Shown one piece after another: positions 51,766-61,998 of a stretch of 64,000 bases of DNA. Each line of letters starts with the position of its first letter. The stretch's first letter is position 1. The notes below the pieces were generated by a model. It did no database searches. It saw only the letters and a list, made by a program, of their open reading frames with translations, and was not told where the DNA came from. The position numbers were made by a program, and so were the translations under genes. Source of the DNA: Thermus parvatiensis (GTDB lineage: Bacteria; Deinococcota; Deinococci; Deinococcales; Thermaceae); the NCBI RefSeq assembly GCF_001535545.1, contig NZ_CP014141.1, positions 930,001 to 994,000 of the forward strand, written 5' to 3'.

Positions 51766-53883
51766 ATGCTCCCCCTCAGGGTCCTGGTCCTCCTCTTGCT
51801 CCTCCTCGCCTTTCTGGACCCCAGGTGGCCCCTTGAGGGGCGGGTGGTCTACCTCCTGGACTTCTCCCCCTCGGCCCGGGAAGCCGTCTTCGCCCTGGCC
51901 TCGAGGCTCCCCAAAGACGGGATCTACGTGGCCTTCGCCGAGCGGGCGGCCACCCTACCCTCGCCCACGGCGAGAAGGCTGGACCTTGGGGAGGGGACGG
52001 ACCTCCAGGAGGCCTACAAGGAGGCGCTCCGCCACCGGCCAAGCCGGGCGGTCCTAGTCTCCGACGGGCTTTTGGAGCCCATCCCTCCGCTTTTTCCCCT
52101 GGACGCCCTTTACGTTCCCCCGAGGCCTTACGTGGCGGTGCGGCTCGTTCCCCCGGCCTACCCCCTCTACGGGGAGACCGTGGGGGTGGGGGTGGTGCTG
52201 GAAGCCCCCGTGCCCGCGGAGGCGAGGGTCCGGGTGGAGGGGCCTGGGGGGGTCTTGGAAAGGGCCTTGCGGGTGGAGGGGAGGAAGGCCCTCGTCTATA
52301 CCTTTCCCCTCACGGAGAAGGCGGCGGTCCGGGCGGTGGCGGAAGGCCCTTGGGGGCGGAGCGGGGCGGAGGTGGAGGTGGCCCCTGCCGACCGGGCGAA
52401 GGCCGTGGTGCTGGGCGACCCGGCTGCGACCCGCTACCTCGAGGCCCAGGGCTTCCAGGTGGAGGAGGGCTTTACGCTTCCCCTGGAGGCGGACCTGGTG
52501 GTCGTGGGCACGGGGGTTTTGGACCTTCCCGAGGGGGCGCCCGAGGCCCTTAAGGCCTTCCTCCGCCGGGGGGGCGGCCTCCTCTTCACCGCCACCCCGA
52601 AGGGCCTCTTCTTCGGGGGCTGGGATAGGGCTTTGCCCGAGGAGCTTCCCCTGAAGCCCTTAGGCCGGGAGGGGGCGGCCTTGGTCCTCGTCCTGGACGT
52701 TTCGGGAAGCATGGAGGGGGAGAAGCTCGCCTTGGCGGTCTCCGCCGCCTTGGCCCTCGCCCGCACCGCCACCCCGGAGGACTACCTGGGGGTGGTGGTC
52801 TTCGCCTCCGGCCACCGGGTCCTCTTCCCCCGCGGCCCATGACCGACCGGGCCAGGAAGGAGCTGGAAACCCTCCTCCTCTCCTTGCGGGCCGGCGGGGG
52901 CACGGCCATGGGCGGGGCGCTCCGGGAGGCGGTCCGCCTCCTCGAGGGGGTGCCCCGGTCCCGGAAGGGGGTCCTGGTCCTCACCGACGGCCAGGTGGCG
53001 GACGACCGGGAGGCCCTTCTCGCCTTGGCGGAACGGAGCGGGGTGGAGGTCTCCGCCATCGCCCTGGGAGCGGACGCCGACGCCCCCTTCCTCGAGGCCC
53101 TGGCCCAGAGGGGCGGGGGGCGGTTCTACCGGGCGGCCTCCCCAAAGGAGCTTCCCCGCCTCTTCCTCCGGGAGGGGCAGGAGGTCTTCCGGGGGGAGGC
53201 CTTGGAGGGGCGGTTTCCCGTGGAGGCCAGGCCCCACCCCCTCACCGAAGGCTTCCGCTTCCCGCCCCTTTCCGTCCTCCTCCCCGCGAGGGCCGAGCCT
53301 TGGGCCGAGGTCCTCCTCACAAGCGGCGAGCGGGCCGTCCTCGCCATAGGGGAGCGGGGGGAGGGGAGGGTCGCGGCCTTGGCCACGGACCTCTCCCGCT
53401 CCTGGCGGGACTTCCCCGAGGCCTCGGCCTTTCTCGGGGGCTTTTCCGCTGGCTCATCGGGGCGAGGCGGGCCCTCGCCCTCTACGCCTACCCGGAGGGG
53501 GAGGGGGTGAGGGTGGTGGCCTTGGGCCCCCTGGAGGCGCCCGAGATCCTCTCGGGAGGGACGAGGCGGCCCATGGTCCCCACCGGGCCCCTCCGCTTTG
53601 AGGCCCGGGTGGAAGGGGAGGGGGTGCTTTTGGACAGGGGGCTCCGCCTCCCCCTCGCCCTTCCCCTCCCGGGGGAGTGGAGCCCGCGGGACGGGCGGGA
53701 GGTCCTGAGGGCCCTGGCCGAGGCCTCGGGGGGAGGCTTCTCGCGGGTCCCGAGGAGGTCTCCCCTGGGAAGGAGGCCCTTCCCTTGAGGCCCTTCCTCG
53801 TGGGCCTCGCCCTGGTCCTCTTCCTGTTGGAGCGCTTCCTAGAGGCCCGCCTTGACAGGGGGGCTTCCCGGGCCCTACCTTAG
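51766..53883 (+). CDS. membrane protein with VWA and glutamine-amidotransferase-like domains (three frameshifts)
   Basis: After repair a 706-residue protein. N-terminal membrane segment (LPLRVLVLLLLLLAFLD), a first Rossmann/VWA-like part (VVYLLDFSPSAREAVFALAS), beta-sandwich, then a class-I amidotransferase-like fold (VVVGTGVLDLPEGAPEAL, AFLRRGGGLLFTATPKG) and a true VWA domain with the MIDAS motif LDVSGSMEGEKLALAV and VLVLTDGQVADD. It ends with a single TM helix (PFLVGLALVLFLLERFLEA). Missing bases are at 52827-52831, 53436-53440 and about 53749-53751. Such GATase-VWA membrane proteins occur in several phyla, often by BatA/MoxR genes; none are here. The function is unknown. Confidence 0.72.
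53852..53881 (+). promoter_or_regulatory. mgtE promoter
   Basis: TTGACA (53852-53857) and TACCTT (53876-53881), 18-base spacer, lying inside the end of the VWA gene. This is one of the best -35/-10 pairs in the window. The leader of about 85 bases contains a hairpin GGCCGCC-CCCG-GGCGGCC (53931-53948). Confidence 0.65.
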
Positions 53884-53930
53884 GGCAGGTATGCGCGAAG
53901 GGCCCTTGCCCTCGAGTCCCGAGCGCTGAG

Positions 53931-53948
53931 GGCCGCCCCCGGGCGGCC
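53931..53948 (+). promoter_or_regulatory. strong leader hairpin before mgtE
   Basis: GGCCGCC and GGCGGCC, 7-bp all-GC stem around CCCG, 23 bases before the GTG. It is followed by TTCGG, not a T run. Too small for the known Mg2+ riboswitch (M-box). It may be an RNA stabiliser or a control element. Confidence 0.5.
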
Positions 53949-53971
53949 TTCGGCGGGAAAGGAGGCCGCCT

Positions 53972-55324
53972 GTGGAGGAAAAGCTGGCCGTTTCCCTCCA
54001 AGAAGCGTTGCAGGAAGGGGACACCCGGGCCCTCCGGGAGGTCTTGGAGGAGATCCACCCCCAGGACCTCCTCGCCCTCTGGGACGAGCTTAAGGGGGAG
54101 CACCGCTATGTGGTCCTCACCCTCCTCCCCAAGGCCAAGGCCGCCGAGGTCCTCTCCCACCTTTCCCCGGAGGAGCAGGCGGAGTACCTGAAAACCCTTC
54201 CCCCTTGGCGCCTGAAGGAGATCCTGGAGGAACTCTCCTTGGATGACCTCGCCGACGCCCTCCAGGCGGTGAGGAAGGAGGACCCCGCCTACTTCGAACG
54301 CCTTAAGGACTTCCTGGACCCAAAGACGCGGGCCGAGGTGGAGGCCCTGGCCCGGTACGAGGAGGACGAGGCGGGCGGCCTCATGACCCCGGAGTACGTG
54401 GCCGTGCGGGAGGGGATGACCGTGGAGGAGGTCCTCCGCTTCCTGCGCCGGGCCGCCCCCGACGCCGAGACCATCTACTACATCTACGTGGTGGACGAGG
54501 AGGGCCGCCTTAAGGGGGTGCTTTCCCTCAGGGACCTCATCGTGGCCGACCCCAAGACCCGGGTGAGGGAGATCCTGAACCCCAAGGTGGTCTACGTGCG
54601 CACGGACACGGACCAGGAGGAGGTGGCCCGCCTCATGGCCGACTACGACTTCGCCGTCCTCCCCGTGGTGGACGAGGAGGGCCGCCTGGTGGGGATCGTC
54701 ACCGTGGACGACGTCCTGGACGTGCTGGAGGCCGAGGCCACGGAGGACATCCACAAGCTCGGGGCCGTGGACGTGCCCGACCTGGTCTATAGCGAGGCGA
54801 GCCCGGTGGCCCTGTGGCTTGCCCGGGTGAGGTGGCTCGTGATCCTGATCCTCACGGGGATGGTCACGAGCTCCATCCTCCAGGGGTTTGAGAGCGTCCT
54901 CGAGGCCGTCACCGCCTTGGCCTTCTACGTCCCCGTCCTCTTGGGCACCGGGGGAAACACCGGCAACCAGTCGGCCACCCTCATCATCCGCGCCCTCGCC
55001 ACCCGCGACCTGGACCTCAAGGACTGGCGGCGGGTCTTCCTCAAGGAGGTGGGGGTGGGCCTCCTCCTCGGCCTCACCTTGAGCTTTCTCCTCGTGGGCA
55101 AGGTCTACTGGGACGGCCACCCCCTCCTCCTCCCCGTGGTGGGCGTGTCCTTGGTCCTCATCGTCTTCTTCGCCAACCTGGTGGGGGCTTTGCTCCCCTT
55201 CCTCCTGAGGCGCCTCGGCGTGGACCCGGCCTTGGTGTCCAACCCCCTCGTGGCCACCCTCTCGGACGTCACGGGCCTCCTCATCTACCTCTCCGTGGCC
55301 CGCCTGCTTTTGGAGGCGGTATGA
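53972..55324 (+). CDS. mgtE: magnesium transporter MgtE
   Basis: Mg2+-selective channel gated by internal Mg2+. It has 450 residues, exactly the crystallised T. thermophilus protein: N domain (1-130, helical superhelix LLPKAKAAEVLSHLSPEEQA), two CBS domains (131-260, YYIYVVDEEGRLKGVLSLRD and VLPVVDEEGRLVGIVTVDDV), plug helix, five TM helices with the pore motif VPVLLGTGGNTGNQSATLII. GTG 53972 has AAAGGAGG upstream. The last bases overlap the next gene (ATGA). Confidence 0.98.
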   Translation: MEEKLAVSLQEALQEGDTRALREVLEEIHPQDLLALWDELKGEHRYVVLTLLPKAKAAEVLSHLSPEEQAEYLKTLPPWRLKEILEELSLDDLADALQAVRKEDPAYFERLKDFLDPKTRAEVEALARYEEDEAGGLMTPEYVAVREGMTVEEVLRFLRRAAPDAETIYYIYVVDEEGRLKGVLSLRDLIVADPKTRVREILNPKVVYVRTDTDQEEVARLMADYDFAVLPVVDEEGRLVGIVTVDDVLDVLEAEATEDIHKLGAVDVPDLVYSEASPVALWLARVRWLVILILTGMVTSSILQGFESVLEAVTALAFYVPVLLGTGGNTGNQSATLIIRALATRDLDLKDWRRVFLKEVGVGLLLGLTLSFLLVGKVYWDGHPLLLPVVGVSLVLIVFFANLVGALLPFLLRRLGVDPALVSNPLVATLSDVTGLLIYLSVARLLLEAV

Positions 55325-56598
55325 GGCTTCGGATGCGCGTGGAGTGGAGCCGGGGAAGCCCCTACCGCTACGCCTGGGAGGGGAGAGGGCTTCGCTTCGT
55401 GGGCCAAGACCGCCCCGCCCCCGTGAACTACGGCCTCGTGGAAGGGCTCCTCAACCCGGCGGACGGGGAGGAGGTGGACGCGGTCTACCTGGGGCCGCCC
55501 CTCTCCCCGGGAGAGGAGGCGGAGGGCCTTGTGCTGGGCATGGTGGCCCTGGCCGACGGGGACCACAAGCTCCTCCTGGCCCAAAGCCCCGAGGGCCTGG
55601 ACCCTCAGGAGGCCGCCCGCCTCCTCGCCTGGTTCTCCCCGGAACGCCGGCCCACCCTTTTGGGGCCTGAGGAGGCCAGGGCCTGGGTGCAGGACCTAAA
55701 GGAGAGGCAGGACCGGCGCCTCGGGGCCTTCTTGGGCCTCGCCGTGGGGGACGCCCTGGGGGCCCAGGTGGAGGGCCTGCCCAAGGGCACCTTTCCGGAG
55801 GTCCGGGAGATGAAGGGCGGGGGGCCCCACCGCCTTCCCCCCGGGTTCTGGACCGACGACACGAGCCAGGCCCTCTGCCTGGCGGAAAGCCTCTTGCAGC
55901 GGGGGTTTGACCCCAAGGACCAGATGGACCGCTACCTGCGCTGGTACCGGGAGGGGTACAGGAGCGCCACCGGGGTCTGTTTTGGCCTCGGCCACGCCAC
56001 CAGGAGGGCCCTGGAGCGCTACGCCGCCACGGGCGACCCCTATGCGGGGGACGAGGCGGGGGCGGGAAACGGGCCCTTGATGCGCCTCGCTCCCCTCGTC
56101 CTCGCCTACGAGAACCACCCTGACCTGCTTTCCCTGGCCCGGCGCGCCGCCCGGACCACCCACGGGGCGAGGGAGGCCCTCGAGGCCACCGAGGTCCTCG
56201 CCTGGCTCCTCCGGGAGGCCCTGAGGGGGGCGCCCAAAGAGGCCCTCCTCGCCCTTAAGCCCTTCCGGGGGGCCGACCTCCACCCCGCCCTAAGGCGGGT
56301 GGTGGAAGGAGGGTTTTGGGAGGCGCCGGAGGAGGGGCCGGGCTACGCCCCCGGGACCCTGGCCGCGGCCCTTTGGGCCTTCGCCCGGGGGCGGGACTTT
56401 GAGGAGGGGATGCGCCTCGCCGTGAACCTGGGGGGGGACGCGGACACCGTGGGGGCGGTCTACGGCCAGCTCGCCGGGGCCTACTACGGCCTTGGGGCGA
56501 TCCCCGGGCGCTGGCTTAGGCCCCTCCACCTGCGGGAGGAGCTGGAGGCCCTGGCCCTCGCGCTCTACAGGATGAGCATGGCGTCCCCCAGGGAGTAG
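55321..56598 (+). CDS. fusion: inorganic-pyrophosphatase-like domain + ADP-ribosylglycohydrolase
   Basis: A 425-residue protein. Residues 1-125 resemble family I inorganic pyrophosphatase: RVEWSRGSPYRYAWEG, APVNYGLVEGLLNPADGEEV, DAVYLGPPLSPG and ALADGDHKLLLAQSP follow the E. coli enzyme's order around N-Y-G, D65, D70 and D102, but K29 and E31 appear as Arg and Ala, and D67 as Glu. Residues 135-425 are a DraG-type hydrolase: GAFLGLAVGDALGAQVEGLP, FWTDDTSQALCLAESLL (metal Asp pair), GNGPLMRLAPLVL and LGGDADTVGAVYGQLAGAYY. It is coupled to mgtE by ATGA. It may remove ADP-ribose from proteins or nucleic acid; the N-terminal domain's activity is unproven. Confidence 0.8.
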   Translation: MRLRMRVEWSRGSPYRYAWEGRGLRFVGQDRPAPVNYGLVEGLLNPADGEEVDAVYLGPPLSPGEEAEGLVLGMVALADGDHKLLLAQSPEGLDPQEAARLLAWFSPERRPTLLGPEEARAWVQDLKERQDRRLGAFLGLAVGDALGAQVEGLPKGTFPEVREMKGGGPHRLPPGFWTDDTSQALCLAESLLQRGFDPKDQMDRYLRWYREGYRSATGVCFGLGHATRRALERYAATGDPYAGDEAGAGNGPLMRLAPLVLAYENHPDLLSLARRAARTTHGAREALEATEVLAWLLREALRGAPKEALLALKPFRGADLHPALRRVVEGGFWEAPEEGPGYAPGTLAAALWAFARGRDFEEGMRLAVNLGGDADTVGAVYGQLAGAYYGLGAIPGRWLRPLHLREELEALALALYRMSMASPRE

Positions 56599-57602
56599 AA
56601 GCGGTAGCCCTCGGCCACGGCCAGGCGGTAGGCCTCGAGGGTCCGCTCCCTCCCCAAGAAGGCCGCCACCAGCATGAGGAGGGTGGAGCGGGGCAGGTGG
56701 AAGTTGGTGAAGAGGGCGTCAACCACCTTGAAGGTGTAGGGGGGGCGGATGAAGAGCCGCGTCTCCCCCTCGCCCGCCACCACCCCGACCCCTTCCCGGT
56801 AGGCGCTCTCCAGGGCCCGGACCACCGTGGTGCCCACGGCCACGACCCGCCGCCCCTCCGCCTTGGCCCGGTTCACGGCCTCCGCCACCTCCTCGGGGAT
56901 GGCGTAGGGCTCGGCGTGCATCTCGTGCTTCTCTGGGTCCCCCTTCACCGGACGGAAAGTGCCGGGGCCCACGTGCAGGGTGAGGAAGCGAAGCTCCACC
57001 CCCATTTCACGAAGTCTTTCCAGAAGCTCCGGGGTGAAGTGGAGGCCGGCGGTGGGGGCGGCCACGGACCCCGGGCGCCTGGCGTAGACCGTCTGGTAGC
57101 GCTCCATGGGGATCTTGGCCTTGATGTAGGGGGGAAGGGGAACCTCCCCCACCTCCTCCAGGTGGGCCACGAGGTCGCCTTGGAAGCGGAGGAGGCGCAC
57201 CCCGTCCTCCTCCACCGCCACCACCTCCGCCTGAAGGCCCGGGACCGGGGCCAGGTCCTTGGGAGAGAGGAGGAGGAGCCGGGTCCCGGGGGGCGCCTTC
57301 CTCGCGGGGCCCAGGAGGGCTTCCCAAAGCCCCGGAGAGCGCTCCCGCACCAGGAGGATCTCCACCTTTCCCCCCGTGGGCTTCCTGGCGAGAAGCCTCG
57401 CCGGGATCACCTTGCTCTCGTTGAAGACCAGGACGTCCCCGGGGCGCAGGAACTCGGGCAGGTCCCGCACCCGCTTGTGCGCCACCCGGAAGGGGCCTTC
57501 CCGGTAGACCACCATCATCCGGGCCATGTCCCTGGGCTCCACCCCTTCCTGGGCGATCTGCTCGGGGGGGAGGTGGTAGTCGTAGGCTTCCAGGCCTTCC
57601 AC
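56565..57602 (-). CDS. queA: S-adenosylmethionine:tRNA ribosyltransferase-isomerase QueA
   Basis: Adds the epoxycyclopentane part of epoxyqueuosine to tRNA using SAM ribose. It has 345 residues: YDYHLPPEQIAQEGVEPRD, LRPGDVLVFNESKVIPARL, VAAPTAGLHFTPELLERL, FLTLHVGPGTFRPVK, HEMHAEPYAIPEEVAEAVN and TNFHLPRSTLLMLVAAFLG. GTG 57602 is two bases after the stop of the NYN gene, so they form one transcript. The 3' end overlaps the convergent hydrolase gene by 34 bases. Confidence 0.97.
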   Translation of the reverse strand: MEGLEAYDYHLPPEQIAQEGVEPRDMARMMVVYREGPFRVAHKRVRDLPEFLRPGDVLVFNESKVIPARLLARKPTGGKVEILLVRERSPGLWEALLGPARKAPPGTRLLLLSPKDLAPVPGLQAEVVAVEEDGVRLLRFQGDLVAHLEEVGEVPLPPYIKAKIPMERYQTVYARRPGSVAAPTAGLHFTPELLERLREMGVELRFLTLHVGPGTFRPVKGDPEKHEMHAEPYAIPEEVAEAVNRAKAEGRRVVAVGTTVVRALESAYREGVGVVAGEGETRLFIRPPYTFKVVDALFTNFHLPRSTLLMLVAAFLGRERTLEAYRLAVAEGYRFYSLGDAMLIL

Positions 57603-57604
57603 GG

Positions 57605-58147
57605 CTAGCGCTCAGGCGACCGAGGCTCCATAAAGGCCCCGGGGATCTCGGGGAGGTGGGTGAAGCGGTCCACGGCGTCAATGAGCCTCTGGGCCGTGGT
57701 CTCCCGGAAGGCGATCACCTCCACCCGGATGCCCCGCTCCATCAGGACCTCGAGGATCTCCACGAAGTCCCCGTCCCCGCTCCCCAGGACCACCACGTCC
57801 AGGTAGGGCATGAGCCGGACCATGTCGGCAGCGATGCCCATGTCCCAGTTGCCGGAGTAGATGGGCCGCCCGCCTTCTCCCGTCTCCTTTACCGTGAGGT
57901 ACATCCGGCGGACCTTGTACCCGATGGTGGAAAGCTTGTAGATGAAGGGCCAGGCGGAGGTGTCCCCCTCCTTCTCCACCACGTAGGCGGTGGCCCGCAC
58001 CAGGCGTCTTCCCCCCACGGCGAAGCGCAGGAGGCTCTCAAAGTTGACGTTGCGCTCGTAGTAGTCCCGGGCCGAGTGGTAGAGGTTCTGGGTGTCCACG
58101 AACACCCCTACCCGCTGCTCCTGGTAGTGGCCGAGGGGTTCCGCCAT
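57605..58147 (-). CDS. NYN-domain (LabA/DUF88, PIN-like) protein
   Basis: A 180-residue soluble protein with the NYN nuclease fold: VGVFVDTQNLYHSARDYY (first Asp-x-x-N), the middle NWDMGIAADMVRLMPYLDVV, LGSGDGDFVEILEVLMERGI and VEVIAFRETTAQRLIDAVDR. The acidic residues of the family's metal site (D in VDTQN, D in NWDMGIAADM, DGDF) are all kept, so an RNase activity is plausible. Between glmM and queA on one strand; 9 bases follow the glmM stop, with no clear ribosome site. The target RNA is unknown. Confidence 0.88.
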   Translation of the reverse strand: MAEPLGHYQEQRVGVFVDTQNLYHSARDYYERNVNFESLLRFAVGGRRLVRATAYVVEKEGDTSAWPFIYKLSTIGYKVRRMYLTVKETGEGGRPIYSGNWDMGIAADMVRLMPYLDVVVLGSGDGDFVEILEVLMERGIRVEVIAFRETTAQRLIDAVDRFTHLPEIPGAFMEPRSPER

Positions 58148-59494: not shown

Positions 59495-61998
59495 TCAGCC
59501 CTTGGCGGAAAGCCAGTCCTCCCCGATCCCCACCTCCACTTCCAGGGGCACGGCGAGGGGATAGGCCTTCTCCATGGCCTCCTTGGCCAAAGCCGCCACC
59601 TCCTCGGCCCGCGCTTGGGGGGCCTCCAGGAGGAGCTCGTCGTGGACCTGGAGGAGCATGCGGGCCCCCATCTCCCGGAGGCGGGGGAAGAGCTTCACCA
59701 TGGCGAGCTTCATGAGGTCGGCGGCGGTGCCCTGGACGGGCATGTTGAAGGCCATGCGCTCCGCAGCCTCCCTGACGCTCTTCACCCGGGCGTTGAGGTC
59801 GGGCACGTAGCGCCTGCGGCCGAAGAGGGTCTCCACGTACCCCCTCTGCCGCCCCTCCTCCAGGGTCCTTTCAATCCAGGCCTTCACCTTAGGGAAGCTC
59901 TTAAAATAGCGGTCAATGAAGGCCACCGCTTCCTCGTAGGGGATGGAGAGCTCCTGGGAAAGCCTGTGGGCGGACATGCCGTATAGGACGCCGAAGTTTA
60001 CCGTTTTTGCTGCCCGGCGCATCCCGGGGTCCACGGCCTCCGGGGGGACGCCGAACATCCAGCTTGCGGTCTGGGTGTGGATGTCCTTCCCCTCCTGGAA
60101 GACCCTGATCAGGTTCTCGTCCCCGGAGAGGTGGGCGAGGACCCGGAGCTCTATCTGGCTATAGTCCAGGGCCACCAACGCCCATCCCGCCTCGGCCACG
60201 AAGGCCCGGCGGATCCTCTGGCCCAAGGGGGTGCGGACGGGGATGTTCTGCAGGTTGGGGTCGGAGCTAGAGAGCCTTCCCGTGGCCGTGGCCGTCTGGT
60301 TGAAGCGGGTGTGGAGGCGGCCCGTCCTCGGGTGGACGAGGCCCGGGAGGGGGTCCACGTAGGTGTTCTTGAGCTTGGTGAGCTCCCGGTGCTGGAGGAT
60401 CTTCTCCACGATGGGGTGGGCCTCCCTGAGGGCCTCCAGCACCGCGGCGCTGGTGGAGCGCTTCCCCGTCTTTTGTGTCTTGCCCAGGGCGGGAAGCCTA
60501 AGCTCGTCAAAGAGCACCCGCTCTAGCTGGTCACGGGAGTTCAGGTTGAAGGGGTGGCCCGCCAGGCGGAAGACCTCCTCCTCGAGGCGGCGAATCTCCT
60601 CCGCAAGCTCCAGGGAAAGGGCCTTTAGATAGGCCACGTCCAGCCTTACCCCGGTGGCCTCCATGTGGGCCAGGACCCGGGAGAGGGGCTTTTCCACCTC
60701 TTGGTAGAGCCAAAGGAGCTTTTCCTCTCCCTTGAGGCGTTCCAAGAGGTTTTGCTGGAGCCGCTCGGCGAGGAGGGCCCGGTGGGCGGCGTCCTCCGTC
60801 CACTCCCCCCGTAGCGCCGGGCCACCCCCTCGGGGGTGGTGTTGGAGGGGTCCAGGAGGTAGGCGAGGAGCATGGGGTCGTCCGAAGGCGCGAGGTCCAG
60901 CCCCTCGCGAAGGGCCAAAACGGCGAGGTCCTTGGCGAGGAGGCCTCGGACCTCCTTGAGGTCCTTTAGCCCCGCCAAGGGGTCCTTTGCCCGGTGCACC
61001 CGGCCCTCCTTGCAGGCGGCCAGGGCTTTAAGCTCCGCCCACATGGGCTCGGGGCGGGAGAGGACGAAGCCCACGAAGGCCCCTTCCGGCGGGGGCCAGG
61101 GGGCCTCCTCCAGGGGGGCGGGGGCCTCGAGGAGGCCGAACTCGTGGAGGAGGCTGCCGAACTCCAAGCGCTCCAAAAAGGCCCGAAGCCCTTCCCGGTC
61201 AGGCTCCCGCCTCCGGGCGAAGTCCACTTCCAGGGGGAGGTCGGCCCGCACCCGGGAAAGCTCCAAGGAGAGCTTAAGGTCTTCCAGGTGGGCCTTGATC
61301 CTTTCCCGGACGCTTTCCGGCTTCACCCGGTCCAGGTTCTTGAGGATATTTTCCAGGCTTCCCCACTCCTTGAGGAGCTTGAGGGCGGTCTTCTCCCCGA
61401 TGCCCTTGACCCCGGGGAGGTTGTCGGAGGGGTCCCCCACGAGGGCGCGGAAGTCCACCCACTGCTCCGGCTTAAGGCCGTACTTCTCCCAAAGCCACTC
61501 CGGGGTGATGAGGTGGCCCTCGGGGTGGAGGACGGCGACGCGGTCGGAGACGAGCTGGTAAAGGTCCCGGTCGGCGGTGAGGATGCGCACCTCGTACCCC
61601 TCCCTTTCCGCCTTCTTGGCCAGGGTGGCGAGGACGTCGTCCGCCTCAAAGCCCGGAACCTCGAGGCGAGTAAACCCCAGGAGGTCCACCAGCTCCTTGA
61701 TGAGGGCGAGCTGCCGGGGGAAGTCCTCGGGGGTCGGGGCGCGGCCTGCCTTGTAGGCCTCGTAGGCCTCGTGGCGGAAGGAAGGGGCCTTGGCGTCAAA
61801 GACCACGAAGACGGCCTTGTACCCGTCCTCCTTCAGGGCCTTGAGGAGGCTCTTGGCGAAGCCGTAAACCGCCTGCACCGGTTCGCCCCGGCTCGTGGTG
61901 AGGCCCTTCAGGGCGAAGAAGGTGCGGTAGGCCAGGTGGTGGCCGTCCACCAGGAGAACCCGGCCTTTGGGTTCAAAGAGCGGAAGCATCGCCTTCAT
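59495..61998 (-). CDS. polA: DNA polymerase I, Taq/Tth type (frameshifted)
   Basis: Family A polymerase with 5' nuclease domain (1 to about 290; LLVDGHHLAYRTFFALKG, FEADDVLATLAKKAE, DLYQLVSDR, VGDPSDNLPGVKGIGEKTA), a vestigial 3'-5' exonuclease domain without the proofreading acids, and the polymerase domain with motif A LVALDYSQIELRVLAHLSGD, motif B RRAAKTVNFGVLYGMSAHRL and motif C LLLQVHDELLLEAP. One base is missing in the C run 60805-60810, so ARRYGG should continue EWTEDAAHRALL; the repaired length is 834, the Tth size. It differs from HB8 Pol I, as recalled, at several sites (e.g. LYQEVEKP, SFPKVKAWIERTL) and has VDPGMRRAAK where Leu is usual before Met. It starts 1 base after the yigZ stop. 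Confidence 0.97.

Follow-up and report, generated by a model that had tools for sequence, protein, structure and literature searches.

A domain with the fold of family I inorganic pyrophosphatase (PPase), and homologous to it, is encoded directly behind the Mg2+ channel gene mgtE in Thermus and related genera. In the 64,000-nucleotide stretch of Thermus parvatiensis DNA that was analysed (the window), this domain forms the first part of an uninterrupted 425-aa open reading frame (55321-56598, + strand), in which it is fused to a DraG-type ADP-ribosylhydrolase. The PPase-like proteins, of about 130 residues, are an undescribed family whose members found so far come nearly all from Thermaceae and their near relatives; searches of open-access papers turned up an account of neither the fusion nor the standalone protein. 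The chances are about even, judging from sequence and gene order, that the family works with MgtE as an Mg2+ or Mg-phosphate binding partner, with the DraG part as an optional effector.

Fold and active site of the PPase-like domain

The first-pass annotation of this DNA had read the start of the reading frame as PPase-like from a series of motifs, and VEW, PVNYG, DGEEVDAV and DGDHKLL are indeed present. The isolated domain (residues 1-128; 55321..55704, + strand) matches PF00719 with E=0.0017 and 18.6 bits, below the curated cut-off of 23.5 bits, so a stronger test of the PPase reading was needed. Copies from the genomes of six relatives exceed this cut-off, and 19/19 aligned family members match PF00719. 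Homologues were gathered from Deinococcota genomes and aligned, and the resulting 19-sequence profile found family I PPases in the PDB (best E 4.7e-9); the PDB sequences matched by the profile with E up to 1 were family I PPases in 37 cases out of 37. Comparison with Thermaceae PPases by hhalign gave 97.6%, E 3e-12 and 31% identity over 83 columns. The first-pass annotation had also made its reading depend on the fold that AlphaFold would predict, and that fold is a PPase fold. The AlphaFold (AF2) model of the domain, built from 22 sequences, has a mean pLDDT of 95, and all of the best 50 PDB hits listed by Foldseek are family I PPases (TM(query) 0.73-0.85), with TM 0.82 for the PPases that appear as top hits. 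Profile, hhalign and fold results rule out a chance match of the motifs, and the N-terminal domain, on its alignments and predicted model, is firmly placed as a family I PPase homologue with that fold.

Relative to the known enzymes (PF00719; T. thermophilus PPase 2prd, E. coli Ppa), the domain is shorter, as the segment that joins the core to the C-terminal helix in the T. thermophilus PPase is absent. Family I PPase-type domains within multidomain proteins are also known as the InPase domains of polyvalent proteins, which are mainly phage-borne and in which an early beta hairpin between the first two core strands is absent (PMC5512222). In the Thermus domain, by contrast, the hairpin strands (15-20 and 23-29) are present in the predicted model, and family members match PF00719 rather than the separate InPase model. 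A mobile or phage origin was considered and rejected, as no relatives of the PPase-like domain were found on viral contigs or plasmids and no good viral fold match was obtained.

Conservation was counted in 50 distinct sequences, in the register of the hhalign alignment and with E. coli PPase numbering; the assignment of residues to E. coli numbers, and the roles of all residues except yeast D117, are taken here from established knowledge of the family. E20, Y55, D65, D70, D97, D102 and K104, shared with family I PPases and including the metal aspartates D65, D70, D97 and D102, are invariant in 50/50. On the + strand of the window they correspond to E8 (E20; 55342..55344), Y37 (Y55; 55429..55431), D48 and D53 within DGEEVD (D65 and D70; 55462..55479), and D79, D81 and K83 within DGDHK (D97, D102 and K104; 55555..55569), where H82 is invariant as well. 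Two lysines of the known enzymes are replaced by arginine: R16 (55366..55368, + strand) stands at the K29 position, which is Arg in 50/50, and R109 (55645..55647, + strand) at the K142 position, which is Arg in 49/49 in a helix register set by inspection outside the hhalign region. The position of the general base D67, occupied by E50 of the DGEEVD motif, is not conserved (E 27, A 14, D 5, S 3 and V 1 of 50), which makes it Ala, Ser or Val in 18/50; the E31, R43, Y51 and Y141 positions are likewise variable. The equivalent of D67 in yeast PPase, D117, activates water (PMC11210485).

Of the catalytic positions, 9/14 are among the 25 near-invariant positions of the domain (Fisher p = 1e-4). Because the metal and phosphate positions are invariant well above the domain average, the alignment describes a conserved and rebuilt metal/phosphate site, which is neither a decaying site nor that of a normal PPase. 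The earlier statements that the K29/E31 pair is missing, that the metal site is partly kept and that the catalytic site is altered have all held up, and the variation at D67 can be added to them. The domain may retain weak hydrolase activity, since Glu stands at the D67 position in many Thermus copies. Clearance of PPi is already provided for, as 41/41 of the Thermaceae genomes examined encode a separate canonical PPase.

Linkage to mgtE

The PPase-like domain was found in 55/111 Deinococcota genomes, mostly as a standalone protein of about 125-145 aa, and a co-directional mgtE lies directly upstream of its gene in 44/55. These 44 comprise 26/26 Thermus genomes with the domain, the basal lineage G075, two Calidithermus, 11/16 Meiothermus-type genomes (g16) and four genomes of a second family (f4). 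In the window, mgtE encodes a 450-aa Mg2+ channel (53972..55324, + strand), and the fused reading frame starts inside its stop codon through an ATGA overlap. The first-pass annotation had taken this overlap as a hint of a link with Mg2+; the conserved gene order supports it, though by itself only indirectly, and is no accident of one genome. The partner of mgtE in this arrangement is the PPase-like domain by itself and not the fusion.

The linkage is not obligatory, since the gene lies away from mgtE in 11/55 genomes (M. taiwanensis-like Meiothermus, the g18 MAGs and G029) and no full-length MgtE match was found in G029. Its neighbours are thrS in the M. taiwanensis-like genomes, and thioredoxin-like and RNase H genes in the g18 MAGs. 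As mgtE is nearly universal across the Deinococcota genomes compared, genome-level co-occurrence of mgtE and the domain is uninformative. One Thermus genome (G003, 99% complete; contig C6) is the only highly complete one of its genus without the PPase-like domain. It carries a divergent mgtE at the usual queA locus, with an MgtE identity of 68% versus at least 79% in the Thermus genomes that have the domain; here the mgtE allele has been replaced and the PPase-like gene lost together. A scan of 84,980 species with a single conserved motif returned Thermaceae only, the motif being narrow enough that distant relatives could escape it.

On its other side the fused gene overlaps the convergent queA (56565..57602, - strand) by 34 bases at its end. 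An Rfam scan of 53700-57700 for a riboswitch 5' of mgtE gave no credible match. Two other genes of the window appear interrupted. The polA gene (59495-61998, - strand) is apparently frameshifted, as the reading frame 60646-61998 departs from the Taq-like Pol I frame shortly before it ends, the remainder being encoded by the reading frame 59495-60745; together with an assembly completeness of 87%, this suggests sequencing indels. A von Willebrand A-type-like gene (51766-53797, + strand) is split over overlapping reading frames (51766-52842, 52839-53510, then more) and is probably broken by further indels.

The attached ADP-ribosylhydrolase

Residues 124-425 (55690..56598, + strand) belong to the DraG/ARH-type ADP-ribosylhydrolases, the family of T. 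thermophilus 2cwc, DraG (2woc) and Tri1 (6dre). They match PF03747 with E 2.9e-73 and 247.5 bits (cut-off 26.2), and are near-identical to PDB 2cwc (E 1e-197), 2yzv and 2yzw. The metal-site motif WTDDT (55849..55863, + strand) is kept in 8/9 fused proteins and the DADT motif (GGDADT; 56437..56448, + strand) in 9/9, in keeping with the complete hydrolase that had been proposed. The copy in G019 (probably T. caliditerrae) has WTDNT instead of WTDDT and, going by this substitution, may be impaired. The NCBIfam equivalog models remain below their cut-offs for the DraG part (Tri1 228 vs 490 bits; DRAG 151 vs 337 bits). A role in defence or as a toxin was tried and dropped, as there was no PADLOC hit and the Tri1 equivalog cut-off was not reached.

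The 2cwc chain, which is the same domain, aligns from residue 124 of the fused protein; the crystal structure was thus solved without the PPase-like domain, and the fused gene supplies its missing N-terminal part. A helix of residues 116-150 (55666..55770, + strand) is predicted to run continuously from the PPase-like domain into DraG, with block pLDDT falling from 96 to 69 across it. In the full-length model the DraG half has low confidence from a shallow alignment, and the docking of the two domains is not interpretable.

The same architecture, for which a search in other genomes had been suggested, does recur, but in 9 genomes only and with one common junction, the domain being usually a separate gene. 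The proposal that the PPase-like domain is a sensor arm of the hydrolase has the relation the wrong way round, as DraG is the addition and is absent from most genomes. The fused set includes the basal lineages G075 and G004 and is scattered over the tree, where the fused/unfused label takes 7 changes (MgtE+QueA tree). In unfused Thermus no comparable DraG was found elsewhere in the genome, apart from a single weak hit of 34% in G014. Among the unfused relatives seen, the closest is a standalone DraG in G027, which lies far from mgtE and shares about 55-58% identity with the Thermus domain. Between G019 and G009, dS is 0.25 for DraG versus 0.55 for MgtE and 0.51 for the PPase-like domain. These synonymous distances indicate that some species have exchanged the DraG part laterally, so that the tree yields no exact count of losses. 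The pattern fits one fusion followed by losses, and DraG seems to be dispensable and to have been passed between lineages. In the pairs computed, dN/dS is about 0.05-0.35, which shows purifying selection on both domains.

Possible roles beside MgtE

A partnership with MgtE is the best reading because the gene stands directly behind mgtE and its product has a conserved metal/phosphate site without a conserved PPase base. The family is a descendant of family I PPase that keeps the metal aspartates, the phosphate-facing Tyr, the Lys and the two Lys-to-Arg positions; the base D67, E31 and further residues that contact substrate are no longer conserved. It would bind a divalent metal and a phosphate-containing ligand without working PPi hydrolysis, and would act as a soluble partner or sensor in MgtE-dependent Mg2+ homeostasis. 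The Thermus lineage would have gained DraG a single time, as an optional effector at the C-terminus, with later loss and/or lateral exchange. Support comes from the invariance of the metal and phosphate positions while D67, E31, R43, Y51 and Y141 vary, from a linkage that extends over several genera and two families, and from the joint loss of mgtE allele and domain in G003.

A whole class of Mg2+ channels has T. thermophilus MgtE as its reference structure, and studies of this protein have treated it in isolation. The product of the conserved PPase-derived gene that overlaps or abuts mgtE is a candidate soluble partner of this channel; it would also illustrate the co-option of a pyrophosphatase for a non-hydrolytic role. 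The gating of T. thermophilus MgtE, a channel of the same type as that encoded upstream here, is set by Mg2+ and by ATP/ADP sensing via its cytosolic domains (PMC5529423), and the papers searched described no soluble partner encoded beside MgtE. A bolder and rather unlikely version is that the PPase became a non-hydrolytic Mg2+/Mg-phosphate sensor which gates or tunes MgtE directly, and that the ADP-ribosylhydrolase was later hooked on in Thermus; the Mg2+ state would then be coupled to the removal of ADP-ribose marks.

An enzyme with another substrate is a serious rival to the partner reading, if a somewhat doubtful one. The domain would then be a re-specialised phosphohydrolase that cleaves pyrophosphate or a phosphoester in a different substrate (Mg-nucleotide, ADP-ribose or alarmone), using the kept metal centre and another base. 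Nine strictly invariant active-site positions are typical of an enzyme and not of a spent one, nucleotide-like substrates have been suggested for the related InPase domains (PMC5512222), and fusion with an enzyme that releases ADP-ribose offers a possible relay from product to substrate. However, the residue equivalent to the water-activating D117 of yeast (PMC11210485) is lost to Ala, Ser or Val in the 18 sequences noted above, and most homologues have no DraG, so that a relay from its product is not the basic function. Ordinary PPi hydrolysis, with the domain as a low-activity backup PPase, is very improbable: the fold and most metal ligands are kept, but D67, E31, R43, Y51 and Y141 vary, the segment between core and C-terminal helix is missing, and a canonical PPase is present in all of the 41 genomes.

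The synteny itself could be no more than a product of common descent and of dense operon packing in Thermaceae; the protein would then have an unrelated role and no functional connection with mgtE. Tight gene packing in Thermus and the 11 genomes with the gene elsewhere agree with this, whereas linkage across two families and the loss with the mgtE allele in G003 argue against it, and it is considered improbable. Whatever the first domain does, the fusion could also be an annotation effect, with DraG translated separately from an internal GTG that was apparently used for the 2cwc construct. In the window, a GTG lies within 55684-55692, about where the solved construct begins (residue ~122-123); the codon is found there in the fused Thermus genes inspected, and an AGG-rich stretch lies upstream of it in the window. 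Separate translation is nevertheless quite improbable, as the stretch between the two parts is free of stops and frameshifts in 9/9 genomes, Leu occupies the GTG position in the two most divergent fused genomes, and the predicted helix crosses the junction.
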